Assembly (NCBI GenBank): GCA_030141605.1
Contig: JAQGDQ010000202.1
Coordinates: 156,099-220,098 of the forward strand
DNA: 64,000 bases
Direction: 5' to 3'
From: Tubiluchus corallicola
Lineage: Eukaryota; Priapulida; Priapulimorpha; Priapulimorphida; Tubiluchidae
The notes beneath the pieces were generated by a model. That model was not told where the DNA came from and did no database searches. It saw only the letters and a list, made by a program, of their open reading frames with translations. Positions 26,054 through 32,281 of this stretch are shown here, in pieces; the stretch's first letter is position 1, and every line of letters starts with the position of its first letter. Position numbers and translations under genes: made by a program.

Positions 26054-29000
26054 ATGACATCAGGTCAACGAGCATTTGCACAAAAGCTTAGTAGACAACA
26101 GGCTGCTGATGTGAGAAAACAAGTATCTTCAGCATATGTTAAACAAATTTCAAAAAGCGGTAGCGATGCTACAATCTCTGTTCCGTTGTCTGATGCAGTG
26201 GAGCCTCTGGATTATGAAAATTTTATCATTCAGCATGAACAAGAAATTGATGCAGATCTGCTGCATCATTTACTCGAGTTTCCATCCGATGATATTGAGG
26301 TTGGTGTGATTCCAAGAAAAATTAGAACTATAGTGCCTGTTGTGCCTGACGAACCTTTTGACACAGCACCTCATGTGCGAGACTGTGTGCAATGTTACAC
26401 AGCTGATTGGTTAGGAGTATGCCGTAGGTATCAGTGTTATAGCTCTAGCTACAATATTCAGGATAGAGCTGCTGAAAAAGCAAATATTATAAAGTCTACT
26501 GAGAAACAGGTCTATGAGATTGACTTAGAAAATGATGCAGATAGTACTGGACAATCATCTAAGCGCTCTTCCGTTAATGATACACCTAGAGGCAGTTGGG
26601 CAAGTAGTATGTTTGATTTACAAAACTCACTGGCTGATCCTTTGTTACCTGATTTGTTAGACAAGGAGTCTGTTGACACCGCAGATCATACGAATGAAAC
26701 AGTAAGATCCAATGATAGACAACAAGACTTATTTAAACTTTATCCATTGCAAGATGAAGATGAAATAGTAGAAAGGCGTTTACCAGCTGATATTCCTTCT
26801 GATCGTTTTGGTTATAGAATTCTTGTGAGATGTTTAACACTGAAGTTAGACTTTGAAATTGAGCCAATATTTGCCTGTATGGCTCTGTATGATGTGCGTG
26901 ACAAAAAGAAAATATCTGAAAATTTTTACTTTGATATGAATCCGGATCATATCAAAAAGATGATGGCACGACATGTGCCTTATCAAGATGTTTCAACTCT
27001 CAGCAGGGCTTGTATTTTTAATATTACTTATCCGTCACCAGATATATTTTTATTAATAAAACTTGAAAAGGTTTTGCAACAAGGTGACATCACAGAGTGT
27101 GCTGAACCGTATATGAAAGATGACAAGAACAGGGAAAAAGCTAAACAAAATGCACAGTATTATTGTGAAAAGCTGGGACAATATATGATGCCATTTGCCT
27201 GGACTGCAATATATTTGATGAATATTATAAAAGGTGTTGGCAGTGCAGATAGAGACAGCACAGCTAGTGATTTTGATAGTATTGGTAGTGCCAGTAGTTT
27301 AGAGCGAAAGGCACTACCAAATTACGACAGTTTTAAGAGAAACAAAAGCGAAACATTTAACTCGCTACCCAGAAGGGGTTCTGTCGAAAGGACCCGTAGC
27401 TTGGGATTTGAAAAAAGATATAGCTGGTCACCAGAAGACACGTGCTCTAATTTGGAAAATTTTAGGCCTGTAACTCTTACTGTCTCTAGTTTCTTCAAGC
27501 AAGAGACTGACAGATTATCAGATGATGATCTGTACAAATTTTTGTTGGATTTGAAAAGGCCAACTTCGGGATTAAAAAAGTTGAAGTGCATTCCTGGAAC
27601 ACTTAAGCTTGACATCTCACCTAGCCCAGATGACATCAAGTACTGCCTGACACCTGAACTGGCTAAAATTGATCCATACCCTGATGATAAAGGTCGTCCA
27701 ACCAAAGAAATAATTGAATTTCCACCTAGAGAGGTTTTTGTGCCTCATTATCAATACAGAAATATTTTATTTGTTTATCCCAAAAGTATCAATTTTGCTA
27801 ACAGAACAGGCTCTGCGAGAAATATTGCTGTCAAAATTCAATTACTGGCTGCTGAAGAAGATCATAATGCGCTTCCGGTAATATTCGGGAAATCTAGCTG
27901 TCCGGAATTCAAACATTATGCATATACGGCAGTAAACTATCATAATAAGACTCCAGACTTTTATGAAGAGGTGAAAATTAAGCTTCCTTGTCAGCTCGAC
28001 AGCCAACACCATTTATTATTTACCTTTTATCATATAAGTTGCCAGAAAAAAATAGAACAAACACCATTGGAAACTGAAATAGGTTGCACTTGGTTGCCGC
28101 TTTGTCCTGGCAGAAGACTTCAAGTTGGGGAGTTTTGTTTGCCTGTTTCTCTTGAAAAGCTGCCACCTGGATATTCAGTCTTACATCCTGAAGTGCAGTT
28201 GCCTGGAATGAAGTGGCTTGATAACCATAAACCTGTGTTTACAGTTAAAGTTGAAGCAGTTTCGTCAATTCATACCTTAGATCCAGCAGTTGATCATTTC
28301 CTATTTTTGTGCTATGACATTGAGGAAGAAAACTTGCCAGGGCGAGTTAGTGAAGTTAGTGTTGAGTCTGAACTTAAGCAGTGTATTACAAACTTGAATG
28401 ATTGTGCATTAGAATCTCTTGTGCATTTCCTTCCACTTGTTTTAGACAAACTAATTTTACTTCTTGTTCATCCTCCTGTAATCGCAGGTCAAATGATAAA
28501 TGTAGGTCAAACTTCATTTGAGACATTAGCAGAAGTTATAAAAACACTGACTATTGATCTGGAAATGTGTAACGATCAGCATGGAAGAAACAGTCTTCTT
28601 GCATCATACATTCAGTTTGCTTGCACATTGCCGCAGCAGGACACCAGTCACTCACTGTCTGCTCAGTGTACTCCAACAGAAGCACTTATTAATTTGTGCC
28701 AGTCCCCTCTATCATCATCTTACCCACGCAGCTCTAGTAATCCTGAGCTGACTGGTTTTTTTCATCATGTTTCTAGCCCTGTTGAGGCTGCTCGTCCAAT
28801 AGAAAGAACTGGAAGTATGAGAACAACTTATGAAAGTGTAAACAGTAGCTCGAAATTGCAATGTAAGAAATTAGTACACGAAGAAATAGCATTGCAGTGG
28901 GTAGTATCTAGTGGATCTGTAAGAGAAGCTGCACTTGCTAATGCTTGGTTCTTCTTTGAATTGATGGTTAAGAGTATGGCTAAATTTTTAGCTGAGACGG

Positions 29001-32000: not shown

Positions 32001-32281
32001 TTCTGTCTGATGTATCAGATGGAACAAAGCCTTGCACAAAACACCAAAATAAGCTGCGTTTGTGTTTCAAGGACTTCATTAGGAAATGTGCAGATGCTTT
32101 AAGGAAGAATAAGACCCTCATTAGTCAAGAGCAAAGAGAATATCAAAAAGAACTGGAGAGGAATTATAGCTCATTGGTAGAAAAGCTAGGGCACATGCTT
32201 ATTAGTGCCCAGAGACGTGCACAGCTGGAAAAAGGTGATTCCAATAACGAAACTCACTTTACAAATGTCACAACGGCTTAA
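26054..32281 (+). CDS. DOCK7: Dedicator of cytokinesis protein, DOCK6/7/8 subfamily, single exon
   Basis: Guanine-nucleotide exchange factor for Rac/Cdc42-type GTPases, acting at membranes in cell polarity and migration. One uninterrupted frame of 2075 codons runs from ATG to TAA and matches the full length of vertebrate DOCK7. Landmarks: an N-terminal DOCK-C signature (residues about 45-130, including FPSDDIEV and DPHVRDC-like [15 protein letters not shown]), [19 protein letters not shown], the DHR-1 lipid-binding domain (about 560-740, starting [20 protein letters not shown]), the long helical middle ([20 protein letters not shown]), and DHR-2 (about 1610-2060). DHR-2 holds [10 protein letters not shown]-like [20 protein letters not shown] and the loop [15 protein letters not shown] with the nucleotide-expelling valine. 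No frameshift or stop occurs, so the gene is under constraint. The intron-free state is unusual next to its spliced neighbours. DOCK6 or DOCK8 cannot be wholly excluded as the closest paralogue. Confidence 0.93.
   Translation: [2075 protein letters not shown]

Follow-up and report, generated by a model that had tools for sequence, protein, structure and literature searches.

An intron-free DOCK-C gene with no detected parent and its proposed origin from a spliced mRNA

The single-exon genes closest to the one considered here are SYCP1 of amphioxus and HAP40 (F8A) of amniotes. SYCP1 is described as a single coding exon of about 3.2 kb that is the sole copy in its genome, is multi-exon in most other animals and has lost its parent (PMC5803294), and HAP40/F8A as a single-exon gene that replaced a lost multi-exon parent with no poly(A) left (PMC7725122). 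A model of intron loss by reverse transcriptase predicts a 3' bias and the loss of adjacent introns (PMC3652778), and RNA-templated repair of breaks has been reported to delete whole introns in human cells by way of polymerase zeta and not of retrotransposons (PMC12065846). Here we describe a gene found in a stretch of 64,000 nucleotides of genomic DNA (contig JAQGDQ010000202.1, positions 156,099 to 220,098; this whole stretch is referred to as the window, and positions are those of the window unless another locus is named). It is a complete gene for a Rho guanine nucleotide exchange factor (GEF) of the DOCK-C (DOCK6/7/8) type that is free of coding introns and for which no parent was detected.

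The DOCK-C gene and its product

A stop-to-stop frame of 2078 codons occupies positions 26045-32281 of the plus strand. The ATG is at 26054 and the stop codon ends at 32281, giving 2075 amino acids with no internal stop, as was claimed in a preliminary description of the window in which the whole protein was assigned to one 6.2-kb frame. The coding region is thus a single intact exon, as in an orphaned retrogene. The second-longest frame of the window has 261 amino acids, is the only other frame of at least 200 and carries an endonuclease domain of the long interspersed nuclear element (LINE) type. The coding sequence and its domains are the following.

26054..32281, plus strand: complete coding sequence of a DOCK-C (DOCK6/7/8-type) Rho GEF, one uninterrupted frame of 2075 codons and stop (frame scan, Pfam, phmmer)
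26192..26524, plus strand: DOCK_C-D_N domain, residues 47-157 (Pfam PF11878, E 1.5e-36)
27746..28285, plus strand: DOCK-C2 (DHR-1) domain, residues 565-744 (Pfam PF14429, E 5.6e-49)
30887..31363, plus strand: DHR-2 lobe A, residues 1612-1770 (Pfam PF06920, E 2.5e-56)
31556..31786, plus strand: DHR-2 lobe B, residues 1835-1911 (Pfam PF20422, E 6.9e-32)
31889..32194, plus strand: DHR-2 lobe C, residues 1946-2047, with the conserved TTVNQGP (Pfam PF20421, E 1.8e-31)

All five Pfam domains score far over their cut-offs, and the three DHR-2 lobes together span residues 1612-2047. No PH family, which would be a mark of DOCK-D, was found in the protein by Pfam at E <= 0.001. With phmmer the protein aligned to full-length DOCK6 (chain 9vm2_A) over query residues 3-404 and 451-2054 with a total of 2215.8 bits, and this alignment was inspected residue by residue up to about query residue 950. 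The match is near end to end and therefore no large part is absent; since it begins at query residue 3, the annotated start of the protein is probably right. Among solved DHR-2 domains (chains of 282-290 amino acids) the score was 407.9 bits for DOCK7 (273 residues), 377.4 for DOCK8 and 235.7 for DOCK10; the matched DOCK structures are presumably mammalian. By these scores the protein is nearer to DOCK6/7/8 than to DOCK9/10/11, and a C/D-type N-terminal domain together with DOCK-C2 (DHR-1) and a complete three-lobe DHR-2 places it in DOCK-C. With the DOCK6/DOCK7/DOCK8 subfamily it shares the full domain order and its best sequence match, and the sole difference lies in gene structure: vertebrate DOCK6/7/8 genes have dozens of introns. 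The product may be predicted to act as a Rac/Cdc42 exchange factor, and the gene to be expressed. In the alignment to DOCK7 (6aj4), Val1972 (31967-31969) falls within the TTVNQGP stretch, where the nucleotide-sensor valine is expected, and is the putative equivalent of DOCK9 Val1951. The nucleotide-sensor valine of DHR-2 has been described as invariant across the family (PMC10152721).

DOCK loci and introns elsewhere in the genome

Three queries, DHR-2 lobe A, lobe C and the whole DOCK-C protein, were run against the assembly (343.5 Mb in 2344 contigs). The two lobes each gave four matches at three loci, and the whole protein gave 11 matches at two loci, of which only the studied gene was DOCK-C. 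There are four DOCK loci in all, namely the studied gene and those on contigs C977, C1915 and C90, the last three being seen as exon-sized pieces. The C977 gene is of the DOCK-D type (514.6 bits to DOCK10 against 382.3 to DOCK6), its DHR-2 matching solved DOCK10 with 305.8 bits over 262 residues, and the pieces on C1915 and C90 have DOCK5 and DOCK2 as their best matches and so belong to DOCK-A/B. The preliminary description had proposed a search of the same genome for a second, intron-containing DOCK6/7/8 locus. With these three queries no second DOCK-C locus, whether intron-bearing or decayed, was found in the 343.5-Mb assembly, the search being made exon by exon and its reach being limited by gaps. 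Within the limits of assembly and search a multi-exon parent thus appears to be absent, and the studied gene is taken to be the single-copy DOCK-C orthologue of this organism.

A second, intron-bearing DOCK-C gene might nevertheless lie in the gaps or below the reach of the search, in which case the studied gene would be a functional retrocopy beside its parent. Runs of N may conceal sequence, and a search for COX1 was also without a match, which implies that assembly or search is incomplete; however, the same search caught DOCK-D exons at 32-53% identity and DOCK-C exons should match far better, so that a hidden parent is considered unlikely. It is scarcely credible that the gene is an artefact in which a cDNA was stitched into the contig. 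The assembly does also contain bacterial-looking contigs (see below), but there is no N anywhere in the window, both flanks of the gene consist of ordinary AT-rich non-coding DNA with dispersed repeats, and similar gene structures are found on other contigs.

The intron content of the DOCK-D paralogue was obtained from a purpose-written spliced alignment of the DOCK-C protein to C977:336001-382000, which predicted 55 introns at 37% identity over 1811 aligned residues. The spliced path holds two stops, and some of the predicted introns must therefore be wrong. Introns counted as robust when the 12 residues on either side were 25% identical or more and the intron was 80 bases or longer; 25 of the 55 passed (median length 585 bases) and the other 30 were dropped before the splice-context count given below. 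DOCK-D is thus intron-rich, so that a scarcity of introns is not the rule among the DOCK genes of this genome. This makes it very improbable that DOCK-C has always been intron-free in this lineage or that the lineage is intron-poor overall: other long genes also lack introns, but alongside DOCK-D the DOCK-A/B genes, the neighbours in the window and 20 cyclophilin matches are in exon-sized pieces. The introns might instead have gone one after another through genomic deletions or microhomology-based repair, with no RNA involved. Studies of C. elegans and Drosophila that are cited in PMC12065846 discuss microhomology-mediated intron loss, and the time could be long, but dozens of independent and precise deletions would be needed in one gene, with the frame undamaged, while DOCK-D kept its introns, and we regard this course as quite unlikely. 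The 2075 intact codons, and a DHR-2 that is closer to DOCK7 than that of DOCK-D is to DOCK10, speak against a long period of relaxed selection, and purifying selection seems to have held on the DOCK-C frame.

Further genes of the same assembly were reached by a cyclophilin search, made as a retrocopy check, in which 40 candidates were all scored and 33 matches listed. Ten of the 33 cover more than 100 of the 159 positions, and all ten were fetched. None of the ten contains an internal stop, and there is no processed cyclophilin pseudogene among the matches listed. Six are on contigs that look bacterial by eye (C20, C1155 twice, C312, C1720 and C1762) and four look eukaryotic, each lying in one frame; these are PPWD1, PPIL2, a PPIB-like protein and a PPIH-like protein (184 amino acids, named by eye). 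The remaining 23 matches comprise three second pieces of bacterial genes and, on nine contigs, the 20 exon-sized pieces. A second, smaller sample was taken from two large contigs that were picked blind to content; these 100 kb held 13 frames of at least 150 amino acids, many of low complexity, of which two are long and host-like, DNAI1 (613 amino acids) and a CD20-like protein (684 amino acids). The genes of interest are the following.

L020 1118-2668 (C701), minus strand: PPIL2, single frame, 517 amino acids, aligned to 1-520 of 520 (707.8 bits; sequence alignment)
L021 1209-3071 (C1874), minus strand: PPWD1, single frame, 621 amino acids, aligned to 40-646 of 646 (1009.7 bits; sequence alignment)
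L022 1401-2078 (C1874), minus strand: PPIB-like cyclophilin, intron-free, 226 amino acids (named by eye)
L031 68-523 and 1182-3020 (C1874:2020068-2023020), plus strand: DNAI1, a 5' exon and one frame of about 600 codons (sequence match)

The vertebrate genes for PPWD1 and PPIL2 are divided into many exons. In 14 stretches that were fetched, holding 15 of the 20 exon-sized cyclophilin pieces, there was no close exon-split relative of PPIL2 (identity at most 64%) or of PPWD1 (at most 57%). The PPIB-like gene has an exon-split relative on C2237 (L039), with 80% identity over 61 residues, which may be its parent or a paralogue. In DNAI1 the 613-amino-acid frame aligned to residues 84-698 of 702 (769.7 bits), and the upstream frame at C1874:2020068-2020523, also one of the 13, matches residues 17-83 (E 1.7e-15). 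The two are joined in frame by a 685-base GT-AG intron, so that one 5' intron is kept and about the last 600 codons are uninterrupted. A LicD-type frame of 582 amino acids at C2104:141297-143042, on the contig of the window, was given no weight because genes of this type may consist of one exon in other animals. Intron-free structure is thus shared with other genes that were sampled, a handful that does not amount to a genome-wide rate. The gene content suggests that the genome is animal-like. Searches for the innexin and GFP families had no match and carry no information.

Two side observations belong to these samples. The 684-amino-acid frame (L031 4716-6767, minus strand) encodes a membrane domain that is CD20-like (MS4A-type); a long part of the frame has no Pfam match. 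The stretches from C20, C1155, C312, C1720 and C1762 (L024-L028) carry tightly packed frames that look bacterial by eye, and the assembly seems to hold bacterial sequence from contaminants or symbionts.

Origin of the gene and its surroundings

It is likely, in our view, that a spliced DOCK-C mRNA was reverse-transcribed and that the cDNA became the sole gene, the two possible sites being taken jointly. A spliced RNA intermediate is indicated by the fact that every intron is missing and the frame is unbroken. In this reading the ancestral DOCK-C gene had many introns, and its mRNA, once all of them had been spliced out, was copied into DNA, either by a reverse transcriptase of the LINE type or by a polymerase engaged in repair. 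The near-full-length cDNA would then have displaced the ancestral gene in one of two ways: by recombination with the original locus, in which every coding intron disappeared in a single event or in a small number of steps, or by insertion elsewhere, after which it outlived the intron-bearing parent. We infer both the reverse-transcription step and the insertion site. Adjacent introns are absent together with the frame unharmed, as is expected of intron loss in place, provided that the ancestor possessed them. The 3'-sided absence of adjacent introns in DNAI1 also fits the prediction of the reverse-transcriptase model. A functional full-length retrocopy and replacement of the gene by its cDNA were the two mechanisms put forward in the preliminary description, and they are still the best explanations; the context has changed in that the gene is not an isolated case, PPWD1, PPIL2 and DNAI1 being similar.

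We lean slightly towards conversion in place because the long cyclophilin matches are without stops and no DOCK-C fragments were found, so that decayed processed copies look scarce. Insertion at a new site, in which LINE machinery would have placed the cDNA beside unrelated genes and the parent would later have been lost, is a real possibility that we hold at clearly less than even. KANK is a neighbour of DOCK-C in vertebrates and the one KN motif (KANK) detected is on another contig, C296, which would favour a new site but is weak evidence since the DOCK-C contig spans only 400,598 bases; this synteny was set aside as uninformative. The lack of a detected parent and the LINE remnants in the window would both suit a new site, for which amphioxus SYCP1 (PMC5803294) and amniote HAP40 (PMC7725122) are published precedents, and the PPIB-like pair may be a retrocopy with its parent. 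Such an insertion requires that a retrocopy of no less than 6.2 kb was made in full length and that the parent was then lost, and neither decayed DOCK-C copies nor, among the matches listed, long interrupted cyclophilins accompany it; a poly(A) run and a bracketing repeat of 14 bases or more are also lacking, though such marks decay.

Several observations weigh against the proposed copying-back or against its in-place form. No poly(A) run was found at the gene. The candidate polyadenylation signal is as follows.

32645..32650, plus strand: first AATAAA after the stop codon, with no A run directly after it (sequence scan)

The A-richest 40 bases downstream (32971-33010, 27 of 40 being A) are a decayed AAC/AAT simple repeat about 320 bases past this signal and could be an old decayed tail. 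Direct repeats of at least 14 bases, the shortest length searched, formed three families, none of which flanks the gene on both sides. The earlier statement that neither poly(A) nor a target duplication is visible thus holds for an A run and for repeats of this length, and is qualified by the A-rich repeat. The lack of these hallmarks fits an old insertion as well as it fits conversion in place. Leftover splice context was scored in DOCK-C at the 25 places homologous to robust DOCK-D introns (the slash marks the junction). Against random positions there appeared to be an excess (AG/G at 3 of 25, P 0.0026; AG/ at 6, P 0.0074; MAG/R at 3, P 0.017; G/G at 5, P 0.002), a comparison that proved misleading; with the amino acids fixed, AG/G at 3 of 25 compares with 1.38 expected (P 0.11), and P was 0.079 for AG/ and 0.052 for G/G, none of them significant, and the contexts were not used as evidence. 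The G+C content at third codon positions is 0.30 in the DOCK-C frame against 0.42 in 22 DOCK-D blocks. The introns of the ancestor are themselves deduced from the paralogues here and from the vertebrate genes. Finally, the PPIB-like gene and its C2237 relative would fit retroposition beside a surviving parent and not conversion.

If the other genes are taken together with DOCK-C, it is conceivable that this lineage passed through a wave of cDNA-mediated rewriting. Spliced transcripts of long single-copy genes with housekeeping and signalling roles (DOCK-C, PPWD1, PPIL2 and the larger part of DNAI1) would have been written over the intron-rich loci that they came from, with few free processed pseudogenes left and with wholly intron-free genes now standing next to intron-rich ones. 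This is proposed tentatively, the chance being a little short of even.

Two elements lie upstream of the gene.

25404..25846, plus strand: dispersed repeat of about 440 bases just upstream, ends approximate (similarity search of the genome)
23305..25021, plus strand: decayed LINE-type element, with a zinc-finger-like frame seen by eye and an endonuclease found by Pfam (Exo_endo_phos on 23735-24517, 33.6 bits against a cut-off of 24.5)

Of 124 candidates 40 were scored, and these put the dispersed repeat at 39 other places with 71-81% identity; some short secondary pieces reach 82%. Small frames at 25413-25559, 25776-25895 and 25919-26020 were considered as 5' exons or as the end of another gene, and searches of Pfam and PDB with the frames joined gave no significant match; the exon-like appearance of the first two is explained by the repeat, which contains small open frames with splice-like ends. 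A T-rich run leads up to an AG whose last base is 25918, and an intron of the 5' untranslated region (UTR) ending there is conceivable but unsupported. A scan of 25840-26060 for bacterial-type promoters gave nothing and is uninformative for this genome. The LINE at 23305-25021 is possibly of the kind that supplies reverse transcriptase. Frames resembling reverse transcriptase were seen by eye at 61238-61699 and, on the same contig, at L019 7334-8631 (minus strand). Downstream, where 40 of 475 candidates were scored, no other matches were found in 32285-33740, and the first of them starts at about 33741. The neighbouring genes appear as scattered exon-sized frames; of those submitted to Pfam, the LINE endonuclease aside, a Suv3 helicase exon alone passed its cut-off; an EEP-type nuclease and a CK1-like kinase were named by eye.

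Comparison with known systems

No report of an intron-free DOCK gene was found in the literature searched, which was judged partly from titles and the starts of abstracts. If the proposed origin is true, a gene of 2075 codons has been stripped of every coding intron, an extreme instance of the back-copying of host mRNA, a process mostly inferred from single missing introns. The coexistence of intron-free, partly cleared and intron-rich genes would also make this genome, set beside a sister species, suited to testing in-place conversion by cDNA against replacement of the parent by a retrocopy, and to asking whether such a loss costs DOCK-C isoforms or regulation.

The loss of introns by way of mRNA usually affects one or a few introns per gene. 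It is precise, takes adjacent introns, is often 3'-sided and leaves the frame unbroken; DNAI1 is similar and DOCK-C would be the extreme, being, unlike the usual case, without any coding intron across 2075 codons. Amphioxus SYCP1, as described, resembles DOCK-C in being a single coding exon and the only copy, with the DOCK-C frame about twice as long. SYCP1 differs in that its new site (beside the ParaHox cluster) has been reported, along with data from three Branchiostoma species, its transcripts and a multi-exon 5' UTR that arose de novo, whereas DOCK-C has been read from the genome alone. For HAP40/F8A retroposition is backed by the non-synteny of the single-exon and multi-exon loci, whereas DOCK-C is known from one genome. 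The DOCK-C gene would be of the same kind as SYCP1 and HAP40 and, since its structure is shared with other genes of this genome, is better seen as one strong example of RNA-mediated intron loss.

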